From Aphrocallistes beatrix (Eukaryota > Porifera > Hexactinellida > Sceptrulophora > Aphrocallistidae): a stretch of 64,000 nucleotides of DNA. The stretch spans positions 2,976,001-3,040,000 of the forward strand of contig OY725496.1 in the NCBI GenBank assembly GCA_963281255.1, written 5' to 3'. A model generated the notes under the pieces. It was not told where the DNA came from. It was given only the letters and a program-made list of their open reading frames with translations, and did not search any database. Every line of letters begins with the position of its first letter. The first letter of the stretch is position 1. Position numbers and translations under genes: made by a program. Below are positions 27,267-59,487 of this stretch, piece by piece.

Positions 27267-27356
27267 TGTATGATTTTATTTCTAAGCTATTTGAAGAGTG
27301 AAAAAAAGGCCCTTATCTCAAAGGTGGACTCGGGGATTGAGTCCATGTTTTTTTAA

Positions 27357-36387: not shown

Positions 36388-39300
36388 TTCATTCCAGAAT
36401 CTTCGAAAATACTCCCAGATGTTTGCCAATGATGACATGGAGTCAGGTAAGAACTAAACATGATAGATGCAGAACCTATGTTTATCAGTGGCGGCGCTAG
36501 AGATGGGGCTTGATGGGGCTAGAGCCCCATCAAAAAGATTTATCAGCCCCATCACTTGATGGGGCTGAGAAGAGACAGACTAGGGAACTTTTAGAAAAAA
36601 TATTTAAAACATGAACTTTTATTATTGAAAATTCATTATTGTGTAGCATCAAATTTCGATAATCACCATTGTAGCATCAAATTTCGAATAATCACCATTG
36701 TAATAATATCAAATTTCGAATAATCACCATTGTGTAATTTTATAATTACACGTTCAGCCCCACCAAAAATAGTTCCAGCCCAGTTCAGCCCCATCAATCC
36801 CGGAGAGCTAGCGCCGCAACTGATGTTTATACGCGATCGCAGAGTATATTCAGCATTAATCAATAGTTAAAAATCGTCGTCGCAAAATTGATCATTTTAA
36901 AAAAGTTGCACTAACTTTACAAGAATACCAATAGTGTTCGATAAAATAGATATTCATTGGTACTAATGAAATATTCATGTCATACCTTATACTATTGCGC
37001 TTTGAGATTTCGTTTCTACCTCAAAATACACATTTTGTGAAAAATGTTGGGGCAGATTTTGTTAAGTGGTTTAGACAAACTACGTATTAGTAGTAAAAAG
37101 CATCTGCCCCAAAATGCTTCGTCAAATTGTTTCTAATGTTAATTAGCAGGCTTTTTTTAGTAATGAAATCAGTAATCATCTAATGAGCTTTTAGAGCCAG
37201 GACTTCCTTTTTGTTTTCCCGTTTTTAAAAAGGTTTGTCCACTGTCCTGTGTCAGTCGGATCTTTAGTGAGATACCTGATAGAGTTGTTGAGATCAGAGT
37301 TGCACGTGGGGCGGGCCGCGGGCCAGGTTTCAAGTCGTGTGTGGCCCGACTTGCTGGAAAGACAACTTACCTAACCCTCAGTATTGAGTTTATTGACCAT
37401 CTGATTTTTTTCGTTAGCTTCTCTGTCACAGTTTCATGCGGGCTGGGCCAGTGGGCTTAAAGAAAAGTTGGCGGTATTTCGTCGGTCCGATAATTTGTGG
37501 TACGAACAGGCCTGTGGGATCGGACCCAATGCTCACGCCCGATATTTTCGGTAATCTACGATTATGAAAAACACCCATGTTAGGCGCCAGCAGGGCGGGG
37601 GTGTTTTGTCTGCTGCACAGTGCAAACGAGCGAAGCTATTTATCCATATAATGTAAAAAACAATTTAAATGCCTAATAAATTTATTATTCTTATTTTATG
37701 CTTTTAGATGATGACGACATCTATGAAGTTTTGGTAAGCAATGCATATGTTTTCATTTATACTAATAAATATAGTTTAGAAATTTATTTCCAAGAACATT
37801 CGTCGTCGGAATATTTGTCACATGAATTAATTAAAACGCTTCCTTGTACATCTATAGAACTCGATTGTTTTTTTGTTCGTGACTAGCACTCTTTATTTGC
37901 GTTTTATTACTAATAGCACTTGCATAGCGCGGCTTGAGAACATTTCTTGCCCGCAGAGTCGCCCTGCGGGTGCCTGGGGATATCAAATAACTTGGAGGCG
38001 CCCAATATTGATTCCTTTCACTAATCCATAGATACAAAGTTCAAAATAAGAGAAAGATGACAATTACGTCATCATCCATGATGAGTAAGTATTTTCGATT
38101 TCTTTATGTGACCCCTGGAAAAACGATAGCATTTTAAGCTCAATTTCGTGTCCTATCAATTAAATCGTTATAAATTAGTAATGATATATTGCGTTATACC
38201 TTTACAAGCGTGCTTTGCTCACTTACACTTCGCGGCTGGCGAACATTTGTGTCGCTTTTCAGGCGTCTCTTTCAAATCTGATATTGTATTATTTATAGTG
38301 TTATATTCTCGTTGAGTTTAATTTGATTCGCTGTACTAGACAGTGTTAAAATATATGTCGATTAGCAAATAGCTATAGTATCATGTCTTCAACCAACTCT
38401 GAAAAAACACAAGCATTTAAGAATTACAGTTCAAGTACAATTATTGCAATTTCTCTCGTTTATCTAGGAGAATGAAATGGCTAATATTGAAAACGAGGAA
38501 TCAATAAAACGCTACCTCACTCTTAATCCTACCATATGGCTAATGAACAATGTTAATCGAGAAGAAGGTAGATATCATACTTGTTTCATATATGAAGAAT
38601 CTAATTCTGTATTACTTATATGATTTAAGGATTTTGTGAATACAGGTAGCCAAGCTTACTATACATTTTTTAGCATGCGAGATTCTACAAGATAAACAGA
38701 TCGGAGTAAGTTGAAATTCGTTTCTTTTATAATACAAATAAATACTCAACGCATATAAACAAGTAATGATCACTCTAAACTTGAAATCTGGTGCATGGAA
38801 AAAATTACAACGCAATCATAGCTGTATATAATGCTAATAATTATATTAATCAGTTTTTTCTGAATTCATTGATTTGTCGAGTTCCGATTTCGTACCTAAA
38901 AATTTTTTAAAATGTTCTTTGTTTTTATATTAAGACATATTTTTATATTCTCTTATACTTGTAGCAATTCATCGTCCGGAACTCTAGTCAGGAGGATACG
39001 TTTGCGCTCTCAATTAGAGTACCTCAACTTAATAAACCAGTCAATCACTATCTCCTTATTAAATCTGATATAGGTGAGAAATGTAATAGAAATAGAAATG
39101 CCCTATCATACATCGAATGCACTATTTTAGAGAATGTTGTGAATAGTCCGTTAAATTTGTATTATCTATGATTGCTACCTGACTTGGCTAGCCATTCGAA
39201 GTGGAATATTTATATTTAGACGTCCTATACTTTGCAGGCTATGAAGCTCAGGGTTCTAACCTCTTCTTCCCAACTCTTCCTTCTTTGCTCGCCCATTTCT

Positions 39301-42300
39301 GTTCTTACCAGAGGTATGTCTGTTTGTACGAGTGGATGAATATTTTGTTTCCATTCCAAATGAAAAGAAAATTCTATTGTAACGTATACCCTTGAACTTT
39401 TATACTAGCATAGGTTTCACATATTTAATGATTTATTAACATGTACATCTACTCTTATACATATTTTCATACCTTTTACACACTTTATATTTTAATTAAA
39501 CCCTGCAATGCCTTTGGGGTCAAAGGTATAAATAGAAATGACCCCATTTTCATTTTCACTTTCAGTTCACTTTCAATTTACTTTCACTTTCGCTATGGGC
39601 ATGCAAGTGTTTAAGCTAGAAACGAAACGGTTAATATTGGGTAATTCACTGTGTAGCACAGATTTTCGCTTGTAGAATATTTAAGAATTTGTAGGACTTA
39701 TTATAAATAGTATGTACGTATGTATAATTTTCACATCTCTCCTATCAACGAGAGATCCCGTAAAGGGAGACTGAGGTGGACACCTTGTTTCCACTGGGCA
39801 AACAATGTAAGAAATTGTAGCACGCTTTTGCATTACAGGGTGGCTCATAAGTTCTGTGACAAACTTCATTAGGTATAAAATTTCTCATACTCAAACAATC
39901 TCAGCTATTATGGTCTTTAGAGATTCTAATTCGAATATTCTCAATGATTTTAAAATGTTTTTCCAGTCTAAGACCTGGAACTGTGTTTTGTATGGTGATT
40001 TTTATGAGGGAAAAATGTGTCCTAGCACGCAGCGAAAATCGAGTATCAGGGCACACTGCTTTTCAATTGGTCTTTCTAGAGTCTTCAAATTCTAGGAAAA
40101 ATTGGCTCTCACATTTCCCTCAAACACTCTAAATTTGTAGAAATATAAGATGTTTATATCAGTACATATTGAGGACCATTTGGATCAGATTTTTGGTGAT
40201 GTGAAAAAAAGTGCAATTTTGGGTGGTTTTGCAAAATGTACCAAATTTGATCTTGTGAAATAATGACTTCTCTCATTTCTGATAATGAATTCAATGGATT
40301 TATGAAATATTTCCATAGTGAATGAAAGATATCTGGTGCTAAACCGTCATAGAACATCGATTATGAAGACATTTTTTACAGAAGCAGTGACCTTGATTCT
40401 CGATTTTCGCTGCGTGCCAGAACACATTTTCCCCCCCTAAAACTCACCATACAAAACACAGTTCCAGGTCTTAGACTGGAAAAATCTTTTAAAATCATTG
40501 AGAATATTCGAATTACAATCTCAAGACCATAATAACTAAAATTGTTTGAGTATAAGAAATTTTATACCTAATGAAGCTTGCATCAGAACTTATGAGCCAC
40601 CCTGTACAATAGAATTATAATCCCTAATAAATATGTATTGTATGACAATTGGTTAATGGGATTATCTTGTAATACTTCTCTCGCAAATAAATAACATACA
40701 TTTTATCTCCAGTTAATTTCCGAATTAAATTCCACTGGAGGCGGTATATTATAACTACGTACAACTAACCATGTGCTCCCAATCTAAACTTTGGATAGGA
40801 TTGGAAATTGAGTTCGTTTAGTTTGAAGTCCTTTCTTTTGGCCGAGTCTAGTTCAATTGCGTAAATTACATTTACATAAAATGTTATTAATTGACAGTTA
40901 CCTCTACGAAAATTGTTTAAAATACAAGGATAAGTCATTCCCTAGAATACAACTCTCCGATGCTCCTTAATAAGATCAAATAGAGAGTACCCCAATCTGT
41001 ACATCTTTAATCCAACCGAAAAACACACGGCAACGACACTAGAATGCCTTCATTCCTGCACTAAAAATGCCAGACTGTCCCTTTTACTTTCAATCCAATC
41101 CTTCCTGGAAAAAAAACTACCTTACAGTCTTTGGGGCCCAATCCCTCTCCTAAAACCGTCCCCAGCTCCTTGAGGGGAAGAAAATGCCGATGTTGTACGC
41201 AAAGGAATATAATTGAAACTGTGAATTAATAACATTGCACGCAATCGTCATGCACTCGACTGACCCATTTCCCCTTTGACCACAACTTTGTCCCTATATA
41301 GTTTCATAATAAGCTAGTTAACTACTTTGATATATCTAAACTAACTTATTCCTAGTGGTGGGATGCCATGCTTGTTGAAGCCTCCAAAAGTGAAGAGACC
41401 TGAGAAGTGCTACCACAGTCAGGGGCAGGGTAAACTAAACTTAGGAGCTAGTCACTAGCAGAAAATAGTTTAAATGAAATGTTATTTCTTCTGCAGCTTA
41501 TTCGCCTGATCCTGACTTTGGAAGTGGTAGAGGGGCTGAGATGAATTACAATTCTACAAATGAACAAATACAAGTGGAGAGAGCGCCCGTTCTTAGACAA
41601 ACCAACTCTGTACCGGTCTCAACGGAAAGACATATTAATAGGGTCCCACCTCCTCCCTCTTCAGACAATCTCATTCCCAAACCAGAGCACACTCTACATG
41701 CCATTCCTCCTCGAATACCTCCACTACACCATCCTATCCTCCCTCCCTCAAACAATGACTACTTGAACAGATCCTACATGGATCCGCGCCACCAACTACC
41801 AGCGACGTCCGAACTAGAGGAGCAGACGGACTATGCTAGCATCGAGTATGATACGCCTGTCCACTTTAACCCCAACTTCAGTCAACGCCCTCCTCCTACC
41901 CTACCCCCCCGGACCTACCTCAACCAGCAAGAGGTGGAATACTCAGATCCTCTACTCTCTCCCGATGCGAATGAGTATGACCAGCCAGGGGAATCTCGCC
42001 GCAATCCTCTCTCTCTTAACAGAGTCCGGACCACTGAAGAGAGACATTCCAGCCATGCTCACCGCTTCTTGCCGCCTCCTATTCCCCCAAAGACAGCCTC
42101 AATGCTCATTGAATCTAGGAGGACAGCTCAGGATGGAGAGAGCTACGATTCTTCTCAAGAGGTGAAGCGGGGCATCCTTTACAATAGCATCAGGCTGAAC
42201 CAGGTTGAAGGACAAATATTACATCATCCTGCCTCTGTCTCTCATAACCGTAGAATCTCACTAGAGACTTCTGATGACTATCTCGACATGGAGCCAAAAG

Positions 42301-45300
42301 AGACCAGTTTTGAAATGGAGAAAGACATAGAACTTCAAGTGCACCATAATATCAAGCACAAAAATGCCTCGAGCAAGGGGGAAACTTCTCCCACCTACGT
42401 TAATGTCACGTTCAACACCATCGCAACCTTTAAAGGTGTCAAGCAGCAAGAGATACCATTTGAAGTCGGGTTCGACCAGCAAAGTGTAGCAACATTCTCG
42501 CAGCCTCTCCCTCCTCCCAGACCTAGTGACAATTGTAACGGCTCCTCCAAGGAGCAGCAGTATAACATGTTCACTCCTGTTAGCAGACACCCAGCAACCT
42601 CTGCATTGCCTCCCATCAAACCTCTCTCATCATCTAAGCAAAACTACAACAATTCTAGAAAAGAGGTGTTGGGAGAACGTTTGATTACCAGACCACGCCC
42701 GTCTCCCAGGAGTCCCTCTAATGAGAGAATGGTCATGATGAGACGATCAAACTCCGCAGAGATTCTTGACACTCCAAGAAAAACTGAAAAACCTCCACTC
42801 TTGCCGAAACCTAGAATTATTCACGGGAATGACAGTGGCAGTGGCAGTGTACAGCACAGGCGCTCCTCTAGTTCCCACGAGTGCTACAACAACCACAGGA
42901 TTAGCCAATCACACTTTTCTGCCAAAGAGACACTCACTAGAAAGAGGTCGGCTCCCTCCCCCACTGAAGGAGCACAACCAAAGCCCATCTTGCGAGGAGT
43001 TAAGCTACCCAATGGGCGAGAGAGAGATTTCAGGAAAGTAAACTTTTCTGGATCAACGGAAGTGCGTGAAACTGCGAAAAAGATAGATGACCGGGATAGC
43101 AATCAACTTCGTACTGGGCGAAGTCGGTCGCCTGTGTCTCATTTTAGACCTGCCCATCCCCCCCCGCCTCCGCCTCCTCCTACCAGACGCCACTCCACTA
43201 ACTTCGCCCAGCCTCTCATCGCGAAGGAGTTGTCTGACAGCAGGATTAACCAGGTAGGACACAGAGTGGGTCCTAACAAAGGAATGACTTATCCTTCCAA
43301 CTACATGCAGCCAATTCCCCAGTTTAACCACGTGGCTAAGTCTCAGACTTTAGATAGGGCTTCTTTCTGTACAAACGACGAAGAGCGAATACAGAGAAGG
43401 AAGTTTGCAGAACGAAGTGGTGAAAAATTTATCAAAGGGCTTAGAGAATCCCCCAGCAAAATGTGGGAGTTGACAGAAACTAGCATTGCTCTCAATTCAC
43501 ATGGGAGAAGTGTTAAAATACCCTCAAAGCCTCAGAGGTGGGTGAATGTGGTATGATAATTCATGCCCAATCCTGGAGATATGTACATGTTTAGCTGCTT
43601 CAAACATTTGTTGTTTCGTTATTATCCTGTTCTTCGTTATTATGCTATATCGCAATGTATAAGGTTGAGAGGAAGAGCTGAATGATATATTTACGTAGAG
43701 AATAGTTTTGCAATTTTGTAAGCATAGGGCGTGTTTACTGAATATTATTAAATTCAACCTTATATCTGGATTTTAGTCCCTATAATTAGGGATTACATGT
43801 CCACTGAGGTATCTTTATCAGTATAGAGTTACTAAGAAAATGTTCAGTCCTACAAGTCGTACATGATCTTTCAAATTTAGATGAAGTATGGCAGGTCTCC
43901 TGTACTAACTGCAGGAGAACAACGAACTCCTCTTGTAGATTTGAATTTCAGCTCTCCATCAACAGACCTATTTAAATGATGATCGTTTGTATATATATTT
44001 ATAATTTGTTCTAAATCCTATAGTGAGAGTACCAATACCCGTGACAACTTAAATAACGGAATCGATAATGAAAACTTGAATCTGGAGGAGTATAAGAAAG
44101 TTGCTCTATCTAAAAGTTAGCTTAACACATTACAAGTTACGAATAATTCACTTCGTTTCCACGAATTTGTAGTGCCATATTATGTTTCATCGATTTGGGA
44201 CGGGGAAGTCATATAAAGCCTGGTAGCTATATGAATAGATCGTCCCTAGGGAAACGGAGTAACTGGACGGTTTACTCGTTATGAATAACCCAAATGAATT
44301 AGAGCACTGGAGTATGTTCTATTTATACTAAACACCACATTTTTATGCTTCCCCATTGAAATGACTTAACAGGAAATGATTTAACTTTCCTAGGTTATTC
44401 GGATTTTAATAAATTAACGTTGTTCGTAGGGAGCAAATACAAGAAGTCAAGGACTCCCTCACGCAGGGTAGCGATGTACATATACAGGTTGGTAACATTC
44501 AACTACAGACGTAATATATGAAATCAAAGAGTACTTGGAACAGTATGGTACCATGCTATAATCCTTTTACAACGGAATTAACCTAATTTGTACTTCGTTT
44601 AAACGTCACTCTTTTGATGTGTTTTGAATTTAGAAAGTCCAATGAACAATGACGTTCGATGTCTTCGATCAGACTTGTTGATTCCATATTTGAATATTTG
44701 ATTTGATTTGATACAATTTAGTGTTTTATGAAAATTGATTTGATGTGATTTGACTACTGTTTGATTTGATTTCATTTGAATAAAAAACTATCAAATCCAC
44801 AACTCTGCGATATATGGCCCTGAATATTCTAGATAAGAAATAAGTTTTGAAATAGTAGTTAATTAAGTGGAGTACTACAATTTCATTTCGAAAAATTATA
44901 TTGAATTCTTCTAGATTGAATGGCCGAACCCACCCAATGGGTAACAAGATACATAGCTTTAACAAGGCTATTCTTAAACGGCAGCAAAGCGATGGAAATG
45001 TAAATATTGAGAAGACTTTAGTACAGGTAATTCATTAGTCATATATATATACGTCATAATTCCATGATGAGTCGACATTTTCGCCTGAAATCAGAACTTA
45101 GTGGAGCCATAGCCAAAAGACTCCCACATACCAAAAATCTGCTATCTGTGCCCGGCAGCTTCTTTAATCAATTCGCTATATATATATACATATATACACT
45201 GCCTGAACAAAAGTATTCATACACTCCATAATTACTCATACAAATAGTTATACTACTGATTCATTCAGCGTTTCAAGAATATTTAATTTGTGAGAGATAC

Positions 45301-48300
45301 ACTTAATTTGACTTCAAATTCGAATTCTCCACATTCAAATTACCCACTTTACAAGTTTTCAACTTAATTACTCTTCATCAAGATTAAGATTTTCAGTATT
45401 TGCTAATTGTTTTATTTGGGAATTTCATTGTCAGGTACGGAGGTTTATTGATGGAGTGAAAAAGCATCTTATGACTGCCAAGATAGACGTAATAACGCAT
45501 AAATATCGAGATCAACTTAACGGAAATACTACGAAAGAAGATCCTACAGATATGGTAAGCTCGAATATCTACATATATATATATATATATTATACTAGCA
45601 CGCTTCGTTTGCTAGTGCTGCGCGGCTTGCGAACACTTAGTGTCTGCCTGAGCCACCGTTCGCGGCCCATACTACAACTTTTTCACAGGAAGCCCCCATT
45701 TTTTATATATTTAAGTCTTATACCCGTGATTTCTCCCACAAACTCGAAGCTCCTAGTCCAGAACTAACATGTCATACAGCTGCATTTCATCAATAAATTA
45801 ATTATAAACAATACTTATTATCTTTAGAATAGATAATTGTTGGTTTCCATGAACCAATGGATTTTAAGTCTCGAATAGCAAATATGAATTTATTGTTGCA
45901 TTGCATAACATATACGTAGTTCCTAAGGTTAATTCGGTAAATGGACAAAATTTCAAAATTCAAAAAGAAGCCTCGTTTTCTGCGTAGAACTTATTAGTCG
46001 GGTCAAAATAGGAAGCAAATTATCCTAACCCCAAAATAATTGCAAGAAATTGTTTTATTGCATTTTTCCGTAGTATCATGTCTTAAGAGTGACATACTAA
46101 AAGTTTACCGAAATCGGACTATCCGAAAGTGGATTGGTACGACTCCGTCGTTGACCCCGGACTATACAAATCGCAGGTTTTAAAAACGGATATTTAAACT
46201 TTCAAATGATGCAGATCATTTTTATTGTAATATTCGTGCTCAGCATCAAATTTCCGACAATTTGATATATATATTGACTATATTTTGGGCAAATATTTTC
46301 TGATCCTCCCTAGGAACGGCCTGGAATGTGAAAATTCCGATCTCCAAATTTGGTAGAAACCATATCGAGTGACCCCTTGTTTTTCTCGGCTATGCTTGCT
46401 GAGTACGAATTTCTTAATATAAATAGTCTAAATGTTAGTTTTAAATATTATTACTTACGGCTGGTGGCATAAATGTATTATTAATGAAAAAACAAACAAA
46501 TAAAATTTAAAATTTGATTCCCATCTCAACTGGGTCTTGGATTGCCTCAGAAAACACTAGCACAGCTTTGTAAGACGGAATCCTCTTTCATCAACCAGTG
46601 TAGAACAGACTTCTCACACCGAGCGAATGCATGTAGAAAAGGCAGGCTGTCATAGATGTCGTTCTCAAACTCCTGATTTATAACCTTTATGTCATACAAT
46701 ACGGTTGGTTTCCCTTTATCCGAGTAGAAGTATATCTTTGTACTGTTGTTAATTTCGTGATACCTGAAAGACCACTGACAGCCTCTGCCACGAAATTTCA
46801 CTCTCTGAGGAGCTCCTTCCAGGTGATGTTGTGGAAGGGCATGACTGATGATATGGAGGTCACGGATGGGGATGGGACTGTCAAGATAACAGCCTAATCC
46901 CAGTCATGATGGACGTTAACCCTGCATCCGAAGCACTACTGAAAATGATTTATTGTAACTGTTCTACTGGCTGTAGTAGTCTCAGATATAGCTGCAGGAA
47001 ACAAGGACTAAACAGCTCTCAAGCATGCGGACGATGCCAAGAGAACAACTGCGCCAATGTGAGCGAAAGAATTGCATCAGATGAAGAAACGGAAGATACA
47101 ACTGAAATACGAGCATATCTATCAATCTACAGTCAACTCCGCTTAAGAGGACTACAGGTTAATCGGGCCGAGGCTTAATCAGACCACTTTTGTCAGGACC
47201 GGATTATTTATATATATCACACATACATACGTAGAAGCTAATGGAAAATATAGACACGTACACTGCCTGAACAAAAGTATTCGTACACCCCATAATTCCC
47301 CATACAAATAGTTATAATACTGATTTATTTAGCGAGTCAAGGTATTTAATTGGTAAGAGATACGCTTAATTTAACTTCAAATTCGAATTACTCACTTTTT
47401 ATCTTTCAACTTGTTTACACTCCCACAAGGTTAAAATTTTTCAAACTGCGCCACCTCATACCACCAATGCCATCATATCAAATGGTGATCACTCGCGACA
47501 TGTGGTATAGGAAAGCAAATGCTGAAAATAATCTTGAAGAAGAGTAACTAAGTTAAAAACTTATAAAGTGGGTAATTTGAATGTGGAGAATTCGAATTTG
47601 AAGTCAAATTAAGTGTATCTCTTACCAATTAAATACATTGACTCGCTAAATAAATCAGTATTATAACTATTTGTATGGAGAATTATGGGGTGTACGAATA
47701 CTTTTGTTCAGGCAGTGTATATCTATATATTTTGAATAGGATTCTCTGCTTAATCGGACCAAAATATCCTCTCACAGATGTGGTCCTATTAAGCGGAGTC
47801 GAGTGTATTTAACAATCTATCCCATCTAATTTTCCATTTTTAAATATCATAGGTATTGAGTTAAAGTTATTAGTTTTTTCCCATTAAAAATACACTTATG
47901 CCACCAGCCGTAAGTAATAATATTTTAAAACTAACATTTAGACTATTTATATCAAGAAATTCGTACTCAGCAAGCATAGCCGAGAAAAACAAGGGGTCAC
48001 TCGATATGGTTTCTACCAAATTTGGAGATCGGAATTTTCACATTCCAGGCCGTTGCTAGGGAAGATCAGAAAATATAGTCAATATATATATCAAATTGTC
48101 GGAAATTTGATGCTGAGCACGAATATGACAATAAAAATGATCTACAATCATTTGAAAGTTTAAATATCCGTTTTTAAAACCGGCGATTTGTATAGTCCGG
48201 GGTCAACGACGGAGTCGTACCAATCCACTTTCGGATAGTCCGATTTCGGTAAACTTTTAGTATGTCACTCTTAATTAAGACATGATACTACGGAAAAATG

Positions 48301-51300
48301 CAATAATACAATTTCTTGCAATTATTTGGGGTCATACATCATATTGACCTGACTATATACTTTAATTGGATCCACCAAAAAACCCAAAATGGTCACATGG
48401 ATCAACAACTTGGAAAATTGTGGCTTTTTGCAGTTTTAGTAATATACAATTAATTTCAAAATCTTTGCTTAAAAGCTTTATTATAATTCTTAAATTGGGT
48501 CCTTAATATAGGCCTCTAAACTAGACAATCTCGTTTCACGATTTAGTTAAACTACAGGTTGAAGATCGAGGACCTGTTATTAGAAAATTTGTTTCTGTAC
48601 TAAATATTCTCATTAATCGGTATTAGTTTGGTTTGTATGTACCGAGTGTTCAATAAGTTCCATGAAAAGGATAAAATGATATTTCCTGAATTAGTATCAA
48701 ACTACCCTATCAATATGTTTTTTGTGGATTTTGAGACAAAAGTCCTATTCCCAGTTATGTTGATATAGTCATATTATAGGCAAAGTTATGCGTTATACCC
48801 CAGTTGCTGATACATCTTTAATAGTTTTTTAATTAATAACAGGATGAATTGACTGACAAGATTGATGTGATTTGTGAGAACTGTCTATACAACCTCATAC
48901 TCAAGCCTCTATATGAACATCTCATTAAAGAGATCAGAGACTATCTCAATAAGTAAGTTCCAAGATCTGTAAACTGTAAGAAACAAATGTTTTCAAAACA
49001 GCCAAATCAAAATATGGTGATCTAGTAGTTAAATTAACCCTGAGTCATCAGATAATTAGTACTCTCGTATTCTGAAAAATAACTTAATAGGAATTTCATA
49101 GACAGAAATAAAAAATGTCGGTCGACAGACCGATAGTGCAGCTCCATTAAGTGACTCGTAAGGCATCTGCTTAATATCCTTAATTGAGTTTTAAAGATTT
49201 TTAAAAAATTTCAGCCAATCAAATTTCAAGTTTAGAGTGTGTTTCTAACTTGTTTATGTGCATTGAGTAAAATGTAATCCCAATTGGTCAATAAAATTAA
49301 AGCCAACTGTAATATTAAAACACTGCAATTGCATTGGTCAGCGCAGAGATATATTTTATCAACATTTTTTCATTTCAGCCTATCAAATTTCAAGTTTAGA
49401 GTGTGTTTCTAACTTGTTTATGTGCATTGAGTCTATTAAATTTTGCAGTTAGATTAAAACCCTGAAATTTTATTGGTCACCACATTTGTCACATTTTGAG
49501 GCAAGGTGTGAAAATATGAATAATCCTTACATTAGGCTAGAGAGTGACTTGTATATGTTCATTGAGTTACGTTTAATCCCTATTAATCAACAATATCAAA
49601 GCCAACTGTAATGTTAAATCCCTGGATTCTGATTGGCTAATACATGTTGACACCTTTTGTGGTAAGGTGTGAAATTTTTTCAGAATTTGAACCCAGGTTC
49701 AAATCTCCACCTTATAAGGAATCTATGGTCCAAATTTGGTGCAATTTGGTCCCATCAAATTTCCAGGAGCGAGCAGACGGACGTCGCACGCCGATCATGA
49801 CATAAGGCATCTATACTAAGAGCTGCACTAAAAATTATATTTTCAAAATTGAGGCTGTATCAAAAATAAAATGAAGATCCCTGGTATTGTTAGCGGAAAT
49901 TTATACTTGGTATTTTTTTAGGAATCAAGATTTAGAGAAGATAGCTAATAATTTTGCTAAAGGATTGAACAGGTCACCTTTGCACTTTGGAATCAGGGTA
50001 AGTTACTAAACAGTGCTATCTCAATGAGTCTATTATAAGACACTCTATATCGGGATAGAGGCTGGCCTTGGTAGACTGAGCATATAATATTTCTTTTTGG
50101 GTTTTTTAAAATATCAGCGTCCAATACTATTCACCGGTATCCGCCTGTCAATATTTTATTCAAATCACGTCAAATCATAAATTAAATAATCTTTTCAATA
50201 CTAAATTTGGACCACATTGCGATGTCATCATGTCGTTGCTATGGGCCAAAAATGGGCTGGATTCATTATTTTTTTAGCAAATCCTTTTCTTTAACTTTAG
50301 AAGTTTCTCACATGGATCTAGATTATAGAAGAGTTTAGACTATAATCTACCTGTTTTAAGTGCGCGTTTATCCACCTTCGACTATATCTTGCTCATCCAG
50401 TGTAATTCAAGGCTCAATTCCTTCCTCAACGCATGTTTTGCTACGACACCCCATACTATTTGATTGTGAAATCTAGCAGACATATACAGTTGTTTTTAAT
50501 GACTCCCATAATTTTGTTAAGTATACGAAGTCTAGCAAAATATTAATTTGCTTATTTCTCAATTTTGTCTTCTTTCCATGGCTAAGGTCACTAGGTATCA
50601 CTATTTTTTTTCAAATTTCAAGAGGAATGTTGCGTGATATGCAAAAATTAACAACCTCGACAGTGTCGAGAAGTATCCCTAAACTTCATGATCGTTACAT
50701 GGTCGTTATTTTTTTTTACAATCAACTCTCTTCAATACAAACACTGAAGACTCACTGAATTTATCAGTATTATTTTGCAACTCATACTAACCGGAGTAAT
50801 TTGATGTACCTTCGTACGTAGGAGTTAAAAAGTGTACTCTTGATTCTGAGTCACGTATTATCCATGTTAATACTAACGAGAGTGTACTTTACGTTTGCTA
50901 GTATTTTTTCCATTATTTGTTTAAATTTTACAATACTTACGGTATATTTTATCCTCTTTCTGGCCAATTTGTTTCACCTTCAGTCCTTCTATAACCCAGT
51001 TTGAGAAAGTTTCATTCTGTCCTATAGTATAGTACATTGATTATCTCGGCTATTTTTTGAACATGTATTTGGGATGCATTTTGTAGGTAAATGTCTTTGG
51101 ATTTTCAAATCCTAATATTATTAAGTGCTATTGTAATGGAGACAAATTAAAAAATCTGGGGTCCATACCATAAATATGAACATTCCACTCGCCCTCCTAG
51201 ATCTTGTGCATTACTGCCACCAAAATAGAAGTATAAGATAATTAAAACAGGTAGATTATACTCTAAAGTCTTCTAGAACCAGGTGGAAACTTTAGGAAGT

Positions 51301-54300
51301 TATAGAAAAGGATTTGATAAATAAGAATGAATCCAGGCCACTTTTCGCCCATAGCAACGAAGATCGGAATGTGACAGATTTAATTGATGGAAATTGAACG
51401 CTGAGTCCGAATTTAGCATTGAAAAGTTGATTTGACGTGATTCGCTTAAAATATTGACAGGGAATACCGGCGGATACTATCGGGCGCTGATGCCAAAACC
51501 CACAAACATTTTCCCCAAAATGCATTTAAGAGGATTTGGGCTGTTTTATTCTAAGAAAAATTCGCTTCCAATGATATCAAATGCTTTAAACCATTTTTTC
51601 CATGTATGGCTTATTTTGGAGCTTCAACGCCCCAACTAATAGTGAAATACCAGATATTAATTAATCGCTGAGATATGGAAAATGTATCATTTTGCATTTA
51701 TATTAATTTAAGTTAAAATACGTATATGATATGTTATTACTTTGAAATACTTGTATGATCAACGTCACAGCGTATTGTACGGAAGCCTGATTTGATTTTT
51801 AGTGTGTTCCTAGAATATTATATTGGATCTATGTTCCAAGATGATAGCATACTTGTCAACCGTCCCGTTGTTTTCACTCTTCTATTGAGCTACTTTTGTG
51901 TCCCGTTTTGCATGAAATTTCAAAAGTCTGTCAAGAAATTGATCGAATTCAAATATCAATGGAAATTTATTTTTTAGTATAGTTTGCTCCTAATACACAT
52001 TTATGCAATGCAAATTTCAGGTTATTCAAATATAAATGAATTTATATTCTATTTACATCACAAAAGAGAGAGACTAAACCACTGCAATCTTGCATAATCA
52101 CAAGCAGTATGTTGATAAATTAGACATTGAAGAGTTAGTGGATGAATGGCGATCAGTATCTACTATACGACAGAATGCTGTAGTTCCATTAGATGAATTT
52201 ACAAAGATTAATCACATTTATTGATCATTTCATATATTTTTTGGACTCATTGGTTTGTGTTCATATATTAAAGTCAAAAATATGGGCGGGCATTGCCAAC
52301 GCATAATGGCAACTTTTACGCCTATGGTTTAGTATGACCTTAGCAAAAAACTCAAATAGTTTTCATTCAAACTTGTGATGAAAAGAATTATGGCTGGCCA
52401 GCCAGACACCAACACTCATTTAAAGGATGTACAACTTAATAGTAGTATTATATTGAATCATAAATCCAACATAAAAGTATTTAAAGCACACTAAAAATAT
52501 CGTCGACAGATTGATAGCAGCTCCATTAAAACATTAACCAGAGGTGTAAAAATATGTATATCACTACTTTTCCCAGGAATGTTGAATTGAAAGTGAATTG
52601 AAATTGAAAATGAAAGTGGGGTCTTTTCTATTTATACCTTGGACCCCAAGTAATCTTAGGGATATACACTCCCTCACCAATGTATTCGCACACTTTAACA
52701 TTTACTCAGTAACAGATATCAGTCCTCGACAAAATCAAAATATGCTGGTGGCTATCTTAACCACCATTTTACTTTTTCTGGTGGCTTAGTTATCCACCAC
52801 GCTCAGAAATTTGGTGGTTTATCGTTAAATTTTGGTGGCTATCGCCACCAAACCATCAGATTTGTCGAACACTGCAGATATACTAAATTAGGCTTCAAAT
52901 TCGTTCTTCACATTCAAATTAATCACCTTGTATGCTTTCAACTGAATTATTTCTGACAGTTAATTTCGACAATCTATTATTATTATTACAATTAGCTACA
53001 TAGTTGCAGTCCTCATATATCAACTGGCATGGATGAAATCGAGATATTCCTGCTTGTGCTAGTCGCTCCAGTTGTCCTCTCTATTAGAAACACCCTCCTC
53101 ACTTACAAGAGAATAGTGGGTGACCTATCTCTAACCTGGAACATCATGGATGGAATATTTCTCATTTTCCCTCCTCTACTTACCTTTACCCTCCTCTCAG
53201 ATTTCGTTTTCCCTATAACCATTCTATTAATTCTATTATTTATACTCCTATTCTTCAGTATTGCCTCCTTTGATAAAGCTGATTGGAAGAGCTTTTTGAG
53301 AGTGTCTCTCTACTCTACAAGTAACAAGTTCTTCCTGACCAACTTCCGCTCCTATATCAACGCTCTATCCTGCATTAGCATTCTGGCTGTCGACTTCTCC
53401 ATATTCCCCGTACGCTTCCACAAGAGCGAGCTGTTTGGGGTCGGTCTAATGGACATCGGCGTAGGTAGTTATATCGGGATGAGTGCCCTTGTGTCACCTT
53501 GTGTGCTACGACCTGTCGAGTTCAGAGGTAGGCCTATCTCCCAGCGACTAGTGGAAACACTCTGGTCTTGTTCTCTCATACTTCTTGTGGGTGTCGGGCG
53601 TTTGATGCTTCTCTGGCTTTTTTCTTACCACCAGCCTGTCACAGAGTATGGGGTACATTGGAACTTCTTTCTCACTATTGCAGTGGTGCGTTTGGTAGCT
53701 TTCTGTGTGACATCCCTGGTTCCTTCTCGCCTATATCCAACGCTTTTTATTTGGACTCTCCCAATAATCCTTCTCTACCAATGGGATCTCAATCACGGGC
53801 TAATTCTGTACATTCAAAATGGCAGATTCGGACCCTGTGATAACTGTTCTGATACTAGGGATGGATTTATCAATGCTAACAGGGAGGGGATCCTCTCTAG
53901 TATTGGATTCTCCTGGATATATCTCGCTAGCATATCAGTGGGATACTTGATTCACTACGGCTTTTCCAATTCGTTCCAAGCTGTAAAGAAGCTAGGTCTG
54001 CTCTCCATACTCGCCCTTCTCCTCTGGGTAGCTACCTGGCTCAGTCAGGAGTTCGTCCAGCCGATATCCAGATGCGCTGCCAATCTCTCTTACTGCCTCT
54101 GGACTCTAGCCACTCAGCTCTCCTTCCTCGCCATATTCCTCCTGGTAGATTTACTCACAGCTTTCTTGCTTCATTCACCTCTGCTAAGAAAGCAGCTTTC
54201 CACGAAAAACGCTGACATCAGTAAAATTCTCAACAAATTGCAGCCTTTAGTACTCCGAGCAATAAACAGGTTTCAGCTGCTCTATTTCCTTTCTTCCAAC

Positions 54301-54442
54301 TTACTGACTGGATTAGTTAACGTTCTCATCAGAGACGAACCTGTTTGGAAGAGCGTTGCCTTCCTCATCCTCTCCATCTACCAACTCGTTCTTATAGCTG
54401 CTGCAGTCTCTATGGAGAATAGATACTACACAGAGACATAGG

Positions 54443-54476
<34 letters not shown>

Positions 54477-56947
54477 AAGATATCATTTTGAAAGAGATTT
54501 GTTATTAAATAAATGTTTGTAAGTTAATTCTTACGTTTTTACTAGGAATTTAACTATTTATGGATTCTGCTCGTATATAAACAATATTTTTGCATTCATA
54601 TCCTAGGCTAATCTGATTCCACCGGATGAGGCAACCACAAAAGAGATGTCGAACATTCTACTAAAGCTCTCAGACGTTTTTTCACCTCTCCTCAAATTGG
54701 AGTTATTGCTGGATGCTGTTAAGCTCGTGTACAAATCAGTAAGTTACTCCTAGCTACACCTATAAATTATACAATCACTAACATGGGAATACGTCACACC
54801 ATAGCATTCTCTCAGGCTATCATTCCATGTTGGCCGGAAATGCTTACTCTTTATGGATGATGACGTCATTATCACATTTTATTTATTCTGAATTTAACCT
54901 ATTTATCTATGGTGCGGAGTATCTGCCATCCGCGCAGCGATAGCGTGTACGAAGCGCGCTTGCCATTCAAATAATTCTCATCGGGACAACCCATCAGTTC
55001 ATGGATTTACATCTTCAGTAAACAACGACGCCTGGTTTCCGCCATCATAACCTTTTCACACGTATACGTACTATTAACGCTTTTTGTTTAGAATTATTAA
55101 TTAATGATCAATAATAATAATAATAATAATAATTAAGTACGTACAGTAACCAGAGAGACATAAGTTAAATCTTCATAATCGATAGTCTAATCAATAAGGG
55201 AAAGCTTCAATGAGACAGCTCTCTGCAGCTCCAACAGCTCCTCACCATCCATATCTTCTATTAAGATGGAGACTGCTCTGAAGAGGTTGGAAGGTTCCAA
55301 TCTCTCTACTTTCTTTTTTTCCTCCAAAAGAGACTCAATAGGTTGCCCATCCAAGTACTTGACCCTGGGGAGAATCTCGCATACCTGCGCTGCATAATTG
55401 ACTGTGTCATTAGAAGTGCATGGGTTATCCGATATCCATATGCTACGAAGGTTCTTCAAATGACTCAATTTGTTTAACTCTTGGATGTCCTCTATTTTGT
55501 TGTTGCGTAGATACAGCTCTCTTAATCTCACGCACTGTGACAGTGGAGTGAGGTCGGAAATGCAGTTAGTTGTTAAGATGAGAACTCTCAGGGCAGGAAA
55601 TTCCCTCAGGATGGACACGTCTGTGAGGTTACATCCCCAGCAGTTCAGAGCTTTGAGCGAGTCCATACGGTTACATCGACTCCGCTTCAAGATGAGATCA
55701 CTTGTTAGCTTACAGCCAATTCCCATCTCCAAAGATGTAGTCATGTACACCACAAAAATCTAATAGTTGTGATATCTCATAAACTTAATATATCTCGATT
55801 AATATATAGAAATCTACCAAATTGTTTAACTTTAACTGCCCCTAGCCATTGCAACCTCGATCCAAGTGTGATAATCAATTGTGTGAAAAGAGAATACAAC
55901 GTGTTTTACATTCACAGCTTGCGAACAATTCATATGTCGCACTTTGAGTATATCACAATCCGGATTAAACCCAGTTTAACCCAGTTAAACACGGTTTAAA
56001 CCGGGTTTAGTCCAGTGGGCTGGGATAAACCTATTTAACCCGGGTTAAACTCCAACCCTGTAAGTGCAACATTTGGGAATTACACCTTCGAAAAGATGAA
56101 TATTTGAATCTTTGAAAGCTACACTCGAATTTAGTTTGCAAATAACATAGTATTGTAAAAATATAGTAACCCGCGAATGTGATCTTCCGAATCTACATCA
56201 TCTAAAATCATGTTTAAAATATTTTTGATATTTTACTTAGTGGACTTATTATAAGCAAAAATATTTAGGTTTTTAACTTTTTATACATGTATATAAATAA
56301 TATTATACTGAAATTTTTTAGTCCGTCAAATAGATGTTTTAATACATTTTGCTGTGTAGATCAGAGATGAGAAACACCCTGGAAAAACTGACCTCTCCCT
56401 TGGAGCAGACGGTAAGTCACGCTATAAACATTTTAAAAACTAATGTCAGCCTTTACTAAACAGTGTGAAAAATATGAATACGTAATAATATTACGTGCGA
56501 CAGGACATACGTATTACGTATGTCCTTACTTGACGTCCCCAAAATCACGAAAATAATTACTTATAGTAGCTTCACATCTACAGTATAAGTGTATATTACA
56601 TCCCGAATTCAATAGAAATCGGATTGTTAGATTCCGTAGGATTGCGATGCGTCATAGGAACGTAGTGACTGTGCATGCCATAAGAACAGTGCTGCTCGAA
56701 GAATTTTTTAAATGACTTTACTATTTTTTGCACTGTAGATTTCCTCCCCATCTTTATCTACACCCTGGTTCACACCGAAATGAAAGAGATAGAAGTGGAA
56801 TTTCTCTACACTTGGAACCTATTAGATCAGACTCTGTTGTCGGGAGAGGGGGGATACTACCTCACTACTCTCTGCACTGCTAGTCAGTCTTGTCTTAATC
56901 TTCTAATATCTCTGTGGAGACCTATTCACTGGGGAGATCCCACCTAA
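36388..56947 (+). CDS. RIN-family Rab5 exchange factor (SH2, Pro-rich, VPS9), 17 exons assembled, 5' end not found
   Basis: RIN proteins are Ras effectors and GDP/GTP exchange factors for Rab5-type GTPases on early endosomes. Exons were chosen by GT-AG sites plus continuous phase: 36388-36446, 37708-37733, 38468-38567, 38650-38705, 38965-39073, 39238-39313, 41356-41429, 41497-43541 (or 43550), 44028-44115, 44430-44487, 44915-45026, 45435-45554, 48843-48952, 49922-49997, 54607-54738, 56360-56411, 56739-56947 (TAA). The sum is about 1166 codons in one phase with no stop. The first listed exon needs two bases from an earlier one that I could not find. Order: acidic stretch ESDDDDIYEVLENE, SH2, proline-rich region, RIN-homology segment, VPS9. 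No Ras-association domain follows VPS9, unlike vertebrate RINs. Exons 44028 and 44430 are the least certain. PIG-W and CFAP410 lie in its introns. Confidence 0.8.
36486..36822. mobile_element. hAT-type MITE (337 bp), exact 8-bp duplication, in RIN intron
   Basis: CAGTGGCGGCGCTAG and CTAGCGCCGCAACTG ends are flanked by ATGTTTAT at 36478-36485 and 36823-36830. Inside, the phrase atcaaatttcga(a)taatcaccattg is repeated three times in tandem (about 36648-36733), and gatggggct is repeated on both strands. It lies only 40 bp past the donor of the first visible RIN exon. Confidence 0.92.
38468..39313 (+). CDS. RIN-like gene: four exons encoding the SH2 domain
   Basis: Exons 38468-38567, 38650-38705, 38965-39073 and 39238-39313 together encode a SH2 domain. 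Its start is NPTIWLMNNVNREE (the Trp at the usual entry), the phosphotyrosine-pocket strand is GQFIVRNSSQEDTFALSIRV (Arg as in FLVR), and the end has NLFFPTLPSLLAHFCSY (the FxSLxxLVxHY region). The phrase ...RVPQLNKPVNHYLL resembles RIN SH2 domains more than Src-type ones. The second exon uses the downstream AG of tacaggtag: the upstream AG would bring a stop into frame. The pocket Arg is conserved, so ligand binding is plausible. Confidence 0.8.
39500..39590 (+). promoter_or_regulatory. Palindromic GGGGTC-TATAAATAG-GACCCC cassette, copy 2
   Basis: Reads ggggtcaaaggtataaatag followed by aaatgacccc, then repeated 'tttcacttt' phrases. The same arrangement with the same (C/A)TTTC-rich right flank occurs on the minus strand at 52560-52660. 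It lies within a RIN intron and in the same sense as the gene. Confidence 0.45.
39836..40604. mobile_element. IS630/Tc1-type fold-back element (769 bp), in RIN intron
   Basis: CAGGGTGGCTCATAAGTTCT and its complement are flanked by TA at 39834-39835 and 40605-40606. The inner sequence is shared with 23778-24549 through the whole length. No transposase frame is present. Confidence 0.9.
41356..43550 (+). CDS. RIN-like gene: linker exon and large proline-rich exon
   Basis: Exon 41356-41429 (PCLLKPPKVKRPEKC) joins in phase to the large exon from 41497 (AYSPDPDFGSG...). The large exon stays open for about 680 codons. Either donor TGG|gtgaat (43541) or GTG|gtatga (43550) keeps phase; reading on reaches a TGA at once, which would give a short SH2-only isoform. 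It is rich in Pro, Ser and Arg with SH3-type motifs (PPPPPPPTRR, LPPPRPSD, PPLLPKPR) and Tyr motifs (DDYLDMEP, SPTYVNV, YASIEYDTP) suited to SH2 binding. No folded domain is seen. GC content is clearly higher than in the introns. Confidence 0.8.
44028..45554 (+). CDS. RIN-like gene: exons of the RIN-homology segment
   Basis: Four exons (44028-44115, 44430-44487, 44915-45026, 45435-45554) keep one phase. Notable residues: NLNLEEYKKVALSK, KYKKSRTPSRRVAMYIYR, and VRRFIDGVKKHLMTAKIDV, the latter like the helical region before VPS9 in RIN proteins. The acceptor of the last exon follows a Tc1-like half-element by about 30 bp. Confidence 0.65.
45045..45185 (-). repeat. Helitron-like remnant, subfamily A, reverse, 5' region
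   Basis: It contains ataattccatgatgagtcga, the family's gccatagccaaaagactccc, and the end cttctttaatcaattcg next to (TA)n. The 3' half is absent. Confidence 0.6.
45197..45405. repeat. Left half of a Tc1-like palindromic MITE
   Basis: CACTGCCTGAACAAAAGTAT after TA matches the complete copy at 47261-47717 up to its centre. The right half is missing, and the RIN exon at 45435 follows just behind. Confidence 0.75.
45590..45675 (-). repeat. Helitron-like 3' tail remnant
   Basis: A reversed, diverged tail (agcacgcttcgtttgctag, then gctgcgcggcttgcg) lies beside a (TA)n tract just after a RIN exon. Similar isolated tails are at about 38215-38270 (reverse) and 37580-37640. Confidence 0.45.
46547..47100 (+). 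pseudogene. CXC-domain protein remnant of the long-repeat transposon
   Basis: A frame at 46906-47178 encodes LLKMIYCNCSTGCSSLRYSC, then SQACGRCQENNC: a TSO1/tesmin-like cysteine pattern (CxCxxxCxxxxxxC...CxxCxxxxC) that I know from the C-termini of many transposon-linked hypothetical proteins of invertebrates. The frame is cut by the Tigger-like MITE at 47130. A minus-strand frame at 46547-46801 is unassigned. The rest of the gene is deleted. Confidence 0.5.
47130..47805. mobile_element. Tigger-like MITE split by a Tc1-like MITE
   Basis: CAGTCAACTCCGCTTAAG and its complement-type end attaagcggagtcgagtg are flanked by TA (47128-47129, 47806-47807). The two halves are separated by the Tc1-like MITE at 47261-47717. 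Confidence 0.8.
47261..47717. mobile_element. Tc1-like palindromic MITE (457 bp)
   Basis: CACTGCCTGAACAAAAGTAT and its complement, TA on both sides (47259-47260, 47718-47719), nearly complete palindrome with centre near 47490. Youngest of a three-level nest. Confidence 0.9.
48843..56947 (+). CDS. RIN-like gene: exons encoding the VPS9 domain and C-terminus
   Basis: Exons 48843-48952, 49922-49997, 54607-54738, 56360-56411 and 56739-56947. VPS9 landmarks: NLILKPLYEHLIKEI, SPLLKLELLLDAVKLVY, SLGADDFLPIFIYTLVH and GEGGYYLTTLCTA. The catalytic Asp (in ADDFLP) and the Tyr/Thr pair (YYLTTL) that contact Rab5-type GTPases are present, so exchange activity is expected. The stop TAA is at 56945-56947. 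An AATAAA at 57327-57332 is a candidate poly(A) signal, giving a 3' UTR of about 400 bases. Confidence 0.88.
49120..49830. repeat. Imperfect tandem repeats of about 163 bp with inverted outer ends
   Basis: The phrase atcaaatttcaagtttagag with gtgtttctaacttgtttatg occurs at about 49220 and 49383, with a third diverged unit near 49540. Outer phrases gtgcagctcc...aaggcatct and agatgcc-type complement at the right (aaggcatct...gagctgcac) face each other. Part of an unclassified transposon; a similar gcagctccattaa phrase is at 52515. Confidence 0.6.
50112..51492. mobile_element. Non-autonomous DNA element with about 260-bp inverted repeats
   Basis: Left arm 50112-50365 and right arm about 51240-51492 are complementary (gcgtccaatactattcaccg / cggatactatcgggcgctg, and caggtagattata). 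The middle is not coding. It occupies part of the RIN intron upstream of PIG-W. Confidence 0.7.
52560..52660 (-). promoter_or_regulatory. Palindromic GGGGTC-TATAAATAG-GACCCC cassette, copy 3
   Basis: On the minus strand: ggggtccaaggtataaatag followed by aaaagacccc and a run of ttcatttt/ttcaatttc phrases as in copy 2. It lies 370 bp upstream of PIG-W but points away from it, so I regard it as transposon-derived rather than the PIG-W promoter. Confidence 0.45.
52664..52985. repeat. Degraded Tc1-like MITE half with a GGTGG-repeat insert
   Basis: The left end tacactccctcaccaatgta and the later ttcaaattcgttcttcacatt match the palindromic MITE at 45197. Between them is a compact stretch repeating ggtgg/ccacc on both strands (about 52745-52855). 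It ends about 40 bp before the PIG-W start. Confidence 0.5.
53029..54441 (+). CDS. PIGW: PIG-W / GWT1 GPI-anchor inositol acyltransferase
   Basis: PIG-W acylates the inositol of glucosaminyl-phosphatidylinositol in the ER, an early step of GPI-anchor synthesis. The 470-aa product is a multi-pass membrane protein with about a dozen hydrophobic segments, the usual family size being near 500. Family landmarks: LMDIGVGSYIGMSALVSP (about 140-158), WNFFLTIAVVR, QWDLNHGLILYI, NREGILSSIGFSWIYL (about 283-300, the conserved NREGI motif), and SRCAANLSYCLWTLA (about 347). The N-terminus is short compared with mammals; the ATG chosen is the first in frame. The gene is one exon, free of stops, and lies entirely in a RIN intron on the same strand. 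Confidence 0.92.
   Translation: MDEIEIFLLVLVAPVVLSIRNTLLTYKRIVGDLSLTWNIMDGIFLIFPPLLTFTLLSDFVFPITILLILLFILLFFSIASFDKADWKSFLRVSLYSTSNKFFLTNFRSYINALSCISILAVDFSIFPVRFHKSELFGVGLMDIGVGSYIGMSALVSPCVLRPVEFRGRPISQRLVETLWSCSLILLVGVGRLMLLWLFSYHQPVTEYGVHWNFFLTIAVVRLVAFCVTSLVPSRLYPTLFIWTLPIILLYQWDLNHGLILYIQNGRFGPCDNCSDTRDGFINANREGILSSIGFSWIYLASISVGYLIHYGFSNSFQAVKKLGLLSILALLLWVATWLSQEFVQPISRCAANLSYCLWTLATQLSFLAIFLLVDLLTAFLLHSPLLRKQLSTKNADISKILNKLQPLVLRAINRFQLLYFLSSNLLTGLVNVLIRDEPVWKSVAFLILSIYQLVLIAAAVSMENRYYTET
54442..54477 (+). repeat. (GTT)n microsatellite directly after PIG-W stop
   Basis: About eleven GTT units start directly at the end of the coding sequence, so they lie in the PIG-W 3' UTR. Confidence 0.9.
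54508..54513 (+). terminator. Poly(A) signal AATAAA of PIG-W
   Basis: An AATAAA hexamer lies about 67 bases after the PIG-W stop, followed by a GT-rich stretch (tgtttgtaag). It would end PIG-W before the next RIN exon at 54607. It could also trap RIN transcripts. Confidence 0.6.
54850..54962 (+). repeat. Helitron-like remnant with CRE palindrome and tail
   Basis: ggatgatgacgtcattatcac and, further on, ccgcgcagcgatagcgtgtacg with gcgcgcttg. The middle of the element is missing. It lies in the RIN intron that also holds CFAP410. Confidence 0.5.
55187..55753 (-). CDS. CFAP410: CFAP410 (C21orf2) ciliary LRR protein, compact form
   Basis: CFAP410 acts at the base of cilia with NEK1 and SPATA7 in ciliogenesis. 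The 188-aa product has the family N-terminus (KLTSDLILKRSRCNRMDSLK, then ALNCWGCNLTDVSI), leucine-rich repeats (LRVLILTTNCISDLTPL, LRELYLRNNKIEDI, LRSIWISDNPC), the LRR cap VCEILPRVKYLDGQPI, and a C-terminal helical segment (FRAVSILIEDMDGEELLELQ) like the family's oligomerising end. The linker between LRR cap and helix is only about 20 residues, whereas the human protein (256 aa) has about 80. One exon, on the opposite strand inside a RIN intron. A second ATG nine codons in is an equally possible start. Confidence 0.88.
   Translation of the reverse strand: MVYMTTSLEMGIGCKLTSDLILKRSRCNRMDSLKALNCWGCNLTDVSILREFPALRVLILTTNCISDLTPLSQCVRLRELYLRNNKIEDIQELNKLSHLKNLRSIWISDNPCTSNDTVNYAAQVCEILPRVKYLDGQPIESLLEEKKKVERLEPSNLFRAVSILIEDMDGEELLELQRAVSLKLSLID
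55962..56060. repeat. GTTTAAACC-rich hAT-like MITE remnant
   Basis: Repeated phrases on both strands (aaacccagtttaacccagtt, ggtttaaaccgggttta, aacccgggttaaac) end in ccaaccctg, which is the hAT-type terminus also used at 8747-9581. The left end has not been identified. Confidence 0.4.
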
Positions 56948-57326
56948 ACTGTCAATCTTCCAAATTTGAGAGACGCAAAATAGTAAAAGTATTTAGTCGT
57001 CTTGCCATGAATATATGGTCATTGGAATATGTACAATCCAACCCAATTACCACGAATGTACTTAGTATATCCAGCATTTAGTACTAACACAATGCCTAGG
57101 GGTAATGGTGCTACTACGCCAGTTATTTACAATTGCATAGGTAGAGCGGTCTAGGTAGTCCCACATTTGACAGGGCTATAGGTAATTAGGAAATGTTATG
57201 GTTCTATGTACCAGTAGGGCGTGTGCATAGCTAATAACTTTGTATAATTGAAAAAGTGCTCTTTTATCTTTGAAGGCCGCTTTTTCCGTTTGTGTTGTAG
57301 TAACAATTATTTGGTGGATTAAATGA

Positions 57327-57332
57327 AATAAA
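57327..57332 (+). terminator. Candidate poly(A) signal of the RIN-like gene
   Basis: AATAAA 380 bases after the RIN stop. There are no open splice-bounded stretches between that I could add to the gene. Other AT-rich hexamers exist, so this is tentative. Confidence 0.4.
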
Positions 57333-57639
57333 AGTAATACCAAATAAACACTTTTTTTCTCTCTATTATTTAGTCGAAGTACTAAAGCAGGCGGACTTTA
57401 ACTCAAAAGAAAACAACATTAACAACTTATAGCTTCAATAGCAGGGCCAAAGGTTGGTTTCTACATCATGATGAGTTTTTTTTAAGGATTTGCTCAGAGG
57501 GCCCTGCAAAAGATTAGAGGTCCCTTACCTGGAATACTACATTTTATGATATTCAGTACATTACGAATGTTAAGAAATTAGAGGTCCTTTTGGGCCCTCT
57601 AATTTAGCTTAAAAAAAACACTGATCATGATGACACAAA

Positions 57640-57795
57640 AATCTCCACGATTTTTCGAGTGATATCGATAATGACAGTAAATCAGAATAACTTTTTTAAA
57701 ATTTAGATGTTGTCTACCTTATAACTAAGCAATGTGAGTCTAGGCGCCCACAAAGTGTCCGCCAGGTGCGCAGCGCAAGCAAGCGAGCGCGCTTG
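57640..57795 (+). repeat. Helitron-like element, subfamily A, 3' end only
   Basis: It contains gatttttcgagtgatatcga and ends gcgcagcgcaagcaagcgag with the hairpin cgcgcttg, followed by T. The 5' part has been lost. Confidence 0.6.
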
Positions 57796-59205: not shown

Positions 59206-59255
<50 letters not shown>

Positions 59256-59260
59256 TGTAG
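59206..59260. repeat. (AT)n then (GTAT)n microsatellite
   Basis: About 11 AT units followed by about 8 GTAT units. It lies about 230 bp downstream of the end of the dynein-like gene. Confidence 0.9.
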
Positions 59261-59487
59261 TATATTCTAAACAAATCTAATGTATTTATCAAGTTTGAAG
59301 TAATGGAAATGTTTTTGAGTAATATACCTCACTGATGTATTGATTATATATACTCGCTCCTGCAGGTTTATACTATATATAAGCATTCTGTACTAGATGG
59401 ATTAAGAATAGAATTAAGATCGAGCTTGGAATGCATTAAAATTGATACACGTAATTCTCAGTAAGTACTAATTATAGAGCTCGTGGA

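Follow-up and report, generated by a model that had tools for sequence, protein, structure and literature searches.

The region between positions 36388 and 56947 of the window (the 64 kb stretch of glass sponge DNA analyzed here) contains the proline-rich ORF 41478-43556 as its longest frame, and it raises the question of whether this ORF ends at its own stop codon (43554-43556) or forms part of a larger, dispersed gene. To answer this, an exon model was built by splice-site scoring and phase bookkeeping around the ORF, and the genome, a 100.5-Mb assembly of 28 contigs in which the window lies on contig C10, was searched. Splice sites were scored with generic textbook weights, so that the scores are relative only. 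As shown in Table 1, 15 predicted exons on the plus strand were joined into a single 1098-residue frame without an internal stop, running from a likely ATG at 36419 to a stop at 56945-56947. All 14 introns were GT-AG at the predicted junctions, with compatible phases and all three intron phases present. An initial annotation had proposed 17 exons, without listing them, in one phase and with no stop; the lack of a stop was upheld, whereas the single phase was not, and 15 exons were recovered. We consider it highly probable (roughly 0.88) that this locus encodes the glass sponge's RIN (Ras and Rab interactor), a protein in which SH2 is followed by a proline-rich region, RIN-homology (RH) and VPS9 and which would couple tyrosine kinases to endocytosis via Rab5-type GTPases.

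Table 1. Predicted exons of the RIN gene and neighboring features within it (window coordinates).
Feature	Position	Strand	Remarks
Exon 1	36388..36446	+	First coding exon found, likely start codon inside; acceptor weak, donor strong (7.2)
Exon 2	37708..37733	+	26 nt
Exon 3	38468..38567	+	SH2 begins
Exon 4	38674..38705	+	32 nt, SH2; acceptor 38674 (score 1.8) forced by phase over 38646
Exon 5	38965..39073	+	SH2 core with FIVRN, whose phosphotyrosine-pocket Arg is encoded at 38977-38979
Exon 6	39238..39313	+	C-terminal half of SH2
Exon 7	41356..41429	+	SH2 tail GGMPCLLKPPKV; restores phase between exons 6 and 8
Exon 8	41497..43537	+	Proline-rich region, PxxP and YxxP motifs
Exon 9	44915..45026	+	RIN-homology (Pfam RIN1) domain begins
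Exon 10	45435..45554	+	RIN-homology; in-frame Met codons inside
Exon 11	48843..48952	+	RIN-homology
Exon 12	49922..49997	+	Linker ahead of VPS9 (LHFGIR)
Exon 13	54607..54738	+	N-terminal part of VPS9
Exon 14	56360..56411	+	VPS9; catalytic Asp codon 56408-56410 (GAD|D)
Exon 15	56739..56947	+	C-terminal portion of VPS9 with the stop codon; codons for Pro at 56747-56749, for Tyr at 56855-56857 and for Thr at 56864-56866 (GYYLTT)
Possible alternative exon	44430..44487	+	In phase, mutually exclusive with exon 9; outside preferred model
GWT1/PIGW gene	53029..54441	+	Single frame, nested same-strand in RIN intron 12; Pfam GWT1 320.9 bits
Leucine-rich-repeat gene	55187..55744	-	Single frame, nested antisense in RIN intron 13

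Next, the joined protein was compared with the Pfam models, a check that the initial annotation had itself suggested. VPS9 (70.2 bits, cut-off 27; E 2.2e-19), SH2 (33.7 bits, cut-off 21; E 4.1e-8) and, only just, RIN1 (27.6 bits, cut-off 27; E 3.7e-6) scored above their cut-offs and in the RIN order. The RIN1-like match is thus marginal in the full-length protein. When the parts were scanned separately, SH2 reached 38.4 bits (E 1.3e-9), VPS9 73.1 bits (E 2.7e-20) and the RIN1-like part 32.0 bits (E 1.6e-7); two fragments of the preferred model gave 32.0 and 32.9 bits for RIN1. A whole-genome scan with the Pfam RIN1 model was empty and also missed the RIN gene itself, and it therefore says nothing on absence. 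The proposal of an SH2 domain upstream and a VPS9 domain downstream of the proline-rich exon was thereby confirmed, as the parts can be joined by GT-AG introns, and an RH-like part is added between them.

The key residues were then analyzed by comparison with PDB chains. GADDFLP and GEGGYYLTT aligned with the Rabex-5 and Vps9a chains, and FIVRN of the SH2 domain aligned with two FLVR stretches of p85-alpha, the phosphotyrosine Arg being present; the catalytic Asp, the YYLTT residues and the SH2 Arg are hence kept, as had been read from the letters before. In Rabex-5, mutation of Asp313, Pro317, Tyr354 or Thr357 is described as severely impairing GEF activity (PMC8963869), and these residues correspond by spacing to the aligned Asp, Pro, Tyr and Thr of the sponge RIN. 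The three domain models in the RIN order and the key residues together support the earlier reading as a RIN-type protein, which is likely to act as a tyrosine-kinase-linked Rab5 activator, judging from its sequence.

Several junctions required a choice. The weak splice sites of the model were the acceptors of exons 1 and 7 (both -0.9) and the donor of exon 13 (1.0). For exon 4, the acceptor at 38646 was rejected, as the frame runs into a stop. Exon 6 leaves a phase unfit for exon 8, and a direct join of the two was rejected because the phases misfit with the sole good donor. Nine phase-compatible candidates, single-exon bridges only, were scored for this gap. The three top scores (39873-39994, 39921-39994 and 39566-39606) overlap inverted-repeat arms and were rejected; exon 7 (0.7) was the best candidate clear of these arms, with a narrow lead over 41166-41194 (0.6). 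Exon 7 was chosen over the latter because protein alignment with intronless SH2 relatives decides between them. When the joined SH2 was searched against the genome, single-frame genes aligned through the exon 7 junction; the clearest case was a PTB-SH2 (Shc-like) protein encoded on contig C11 (FFPSLSFL...LLPCTL), which is intronless there. This relative, albeit from a different SH2 family, appears to support exon 7.

The end of exon 8 was placed differently from the initial annotation, whose exon 41497-43550 was correct as to the long proline-rich frame but not as to its end: the donor at 43537 scored 6.1 and that at 43550 only 1.4. Among the exons found, donor 43550 fits in frame with exon 10 alone, skipping exon 9. 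Four joins were compared by their RIN1 score (cut-off 27 bits); the one with exon 9 gave 32.9 bits, the one with 44430-44487 gave 26.4, the one with neither gave 24.7, and a contrived join of 44430-44487 with the latter half of exon 9 gave 27.2. Only the join with exon 9 was clearly above the cut-off. Therefore, 43537 is most likely the end of exon 8; the end at 43550, with its weaker donor and a RIN1 score below the cut-off, was rejected as the main form and is possible as an isoform skipping exon 9. The piece 44430-44487 was left out of the preferred model for its lower RIN1 score, and it possibly arose by chance, since its phase class is represented by 11 exon-like pieces on the plus strand (44430-44487 and exon 12 included) and by nine on the minus strand of the window.

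The RIN1 match starts inside exon 9, at profile position 13-14, and the join between exons 8 and 9 is spanned by no domain; hence, the support for this join comes from its phase, the strength of the donor and the order of the domains. It is here that an alternative of two neighboring genes has to be weighed, namely an SH2 and proline-rich adaptor that ends at 43554-43556, followed by a distinct Rabex-like RH-VPS9 gene with an mRNA beginning, possibly with a trans-spliced leader, at or after exon 9. The stop codon of the exon 8 frame, the in-frame Met codons of exon 10 and the lack of a domain match across the join would suit such an arrangement, and a trans-spliced leader has been reported for the glass sponge Aphrocallistes vastus (PMC10282587). 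The RIN introns reach 4.6 kb, one contains a whole same-strand gene, and a gene boundary could be hidden inside introns of such length. We nevertheless regard two genes as quite improbable: the order SH2, proline-rich region, RH and VPS9 is that described for RIN (PMC8963869), exon 8 has a strong donor at 43537 whose phase suits exon 9, and RIN1 is among the models matched by the downstream part, whereas DUF5601, present together with an A20 finger in the sponge's Rabex-5-like gene, is not. At the 5' end of the one-gene model, the AG preceding exon 1 could serve as an acceptor in either cis- or trans-splicing; because of the leader in A. vastus, this lone acceptor is a possible trans-splice site. 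At the 3' end, the stop is followed after approximately 400 bp by poly(A)-like signals (57318-57348), although such signals are frequent in this AT-rich sequence (33 between 41 and 59.5 kb).

We then asked whether the gene continues into a Ras-association (RA) domain. As the initial annotation had stated, none was found after VPS9: the three plus-strand frames of 56949-59600, the 2.65 kb that follow the RIN stop, with stops read as X, gave no Pfam match at E up to 1. No donor scoring above 0 lies between 56860 and the RIN stop. The genome search gave nine RA places, all on contigs other than C10; domains split over exons can escape such a search. An RA domain in unrecognized exons further downstream or at an alternative 3' end is unlikely. 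Its presence in RIN1-3 and in a Capsaspora homologue speaks for it, and short divergent exons can evade a domain search, but the empty frames, the missing donor and the position of the RA places argue against it, as does the occupation of 60176-64000 by a minus-strand open frame that encodes a dynein AAA_9 motor domain. This frame spans at least 1275 codons and is GC-rich (53-57%, compared with 32-47% in the rest of the window).

The background of the RA domain is as follows. RIN1-3 carry RA (PMC8963869), and RIN has been described as a holozoan innovation with a Capsaspora homologue possessing both VPS9 and RA (PMC6032885); the word "Amphimedon" has no match in the part of the latter text that was available. 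RA is therefore probably ancestral in RIN. If the absence in the sponge is real, loss is the simpler reading, because RIN is holozoan and the Capsaspora homologue has RA. The sole real oddity of the sponge gene is that its usual Ras-binding end was not found.

The region between SH2 and RH comprises 680 residues, in which six motif types, chosen post hoc, were counted. PxxP occurred 18 times compared with a shuffled mean of 9.6, and 0.25% of 2000 shuffles reached 18. YxxP, a motif used by the SH2 domains of Crk and Abl, occurred five times (mean 2.1; 4.7%) and YDxP two times (mean 0.09; 0.3%). The corresponding values were 4.6% for class II, and an unremarkable 38.7% for class I and 27.6% for YxxM.

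Two further genes lie within the RIN introns. The nested GWT1 gene has a second, single-frame counterpart (L001, C8:3356441-3357892) with 34% identity over 386 aligned positions. GWT1 is usually a single-copy gene, and the pair is unusual for this reason. The antisense leucine-rich-repeat gene, which we take to be CFAP410/C21orf2-like, showed no second close copy in the genome, the next best match scoring 37 bits. In A. vastus, 12,409 single-exon transcripts and 2,432 nested genes (12.4%) were reported (PMC10282587), so nested genes are normal in a glass sponge. Overlapping inverted repeats were observed at 45184-48274 in RIN introns 9 and 10, with arms of 77-166 nt that are 87-99% complementary; two of the pairs flank exon 10 with arms on both sides, and a further set lies at 39834-40606 in intron 6. 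Large introns holding inverted repeats and other genes might suggest a decayed or chimeric pseudogene, which we consider highly improbable given that 15 exons are open, 14 introns are GT-AG and the catalytic and binding residues are intact. With its exons of 26 and 32 nt and two genes within introns, the RIN locus is a clear case that automated annotation could split.

Other features were observed elsewhere in the window. A single-exon open frame of 538 residues on the minus strand (25662-27275) has CAP-Gly, leucine-rich-repeat and ubiquitin-like domains and is presumably of the tubulin cofactor E type. A long gag-pol-like retrotransposon frame was recognized by eye at 198-3896. The frame at 29449-30582 contains a DUF4371 domain, which we assume to be hAT-like, and the frame overlapping it (30554-31078) had no Pfam match.

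Genome searches also placed the gene among its relatives. At least seven VPS9 places were found, and the RH-VPS9 part of the RIN protein closely matched only one of them, the RIN locus itself. Six stretches on contig C10 were hit with 81-99% identity, and elsewhere there were just two weak matches (22.8 and 20.6 bits). RIN thus appears to be single-copy in this assembly. By Pfam, the other places comprised RasGAP-VPS9 (C15), A20-DUF5601-VPS9 (C7), MORN-VPS9 with an alsin-PH match below the cut-off (C6), and VPS9 alone in open frames (C2, C1 and C18). Open frames of 519, 1223 and 1201 residues suggest that several relatives are largely intronless. In the available main text of the Aphrocallistes genome paper, as distinct from supplements and databases, "RIN" does not occur as a whole word (PMC10282587).

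The SH2 searches further revealed three single open frames of 702-793 residues with four degenerate SH2-like repeats each, bounded by eye: the neighboring, 93% identical L014:1342-3714 and L014:4910-7288 on C10, and L015:1812-3917 on C17. The phosphotyrosine Arg was absent in all eight aligned repeats (four from one C10 gene and four from the C17 gene). Against the Pfam SH2 cut-off of 21, the C10 genes scored 17.1 and 17.0, below it, and the C17 gene 27.6, above it; a PDB search with one C10 protein had just two hits, each to an SH2 chain (E 0.097 and 0.72).

Contig C28 (17,996 bases) carries mitochondrial genes, COX1 identified by Pfam and the others named by eye. Among these are atp9 and a run of genes in the order atp6-cox3-nad2-nad5-nad1-cob, and over seven genes TGA was counted 49 times and TGG once; no atp8 was seen among the listed ORFs of at least 60 or 70 residues. 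Retained atp9, the same gene run, rare TGG and a +1 shift at TGG are described as traits of hexactinellid mtDNA (PMC2267718). The cox3 gene of C28 (L011:8806-9590) is split in two frames, the first of which has TGG as its codon 140, like the cox3 shift at position 140 of A. vastus (PMC2267718). The mitochondrial genes thus make it very probable that the animal is a glass sponge.

With regard to function, the SH2 domain of the sponge RIN would dock on phosphotyrosine, and the proline-rich region, through PxxP and YxxP, would offer binding sites to SH3 partners and, after phosphorylation, to SH2 partners as well. RIN-homology and VPS9 would then catalyze GDP release from Rab5-type GTPases, a step that may couple tyrosine-kinase signaling to endocytosis, presumably with no direct Ras input. 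We tentatively propose, at well under even odds, that the glass-sponge RIN lost RA while keeping both its proline-rich region and an SH2 competent to bind phosphotyrosine, with Rab5 being activated via tyrosine kinases and not directly by Ras, and that the SH2-like module may also have seeded the single-frame, four-repeat degenerate genes without the phosphotyrosine Arg. The results point to RIN-type coupling of phosphotyrosine signaling to endocytosis in a glass sponge, a lineage that may manage without direct input from Ras.

The gene is an ordinary, conserved animal signaling gene and a new member of the RIN family, whose one possible variation is the missing RA end. Its relatives include Drosophila sprint and C. 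elegans rin-1. The VPS9 domain of Rabex-5 shares the four GEF residues, and the sponge's own Rabex-5-like gene is a separate locus on C7 with an A20 finger and no SH2 match. The vertebrate RIN1-3 show the same order of SH2, proline-rich, RIN-homology and VPS9 regions as the sponge RIN but end in a C-terminal RA (PMC8963869), which was not found here. In human RIN2 the SH2 Arg is substituted (PMC3264577), whereas the sponge RIN keeps it. RINL, like the sponge protein, has SH2, RH and VPS9 without RA; however, it lacks the proline-rich region and has lost the SH2 Arg (PMC3264577), both of which the sponge RIN possesses. As RINL has no RA, a C-terminal RA is not a defining trait of all RIN family members. 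The RA-less, proline-rich and Arg-intact sponge RIN is thus different from RIN1-3 and from RINL.
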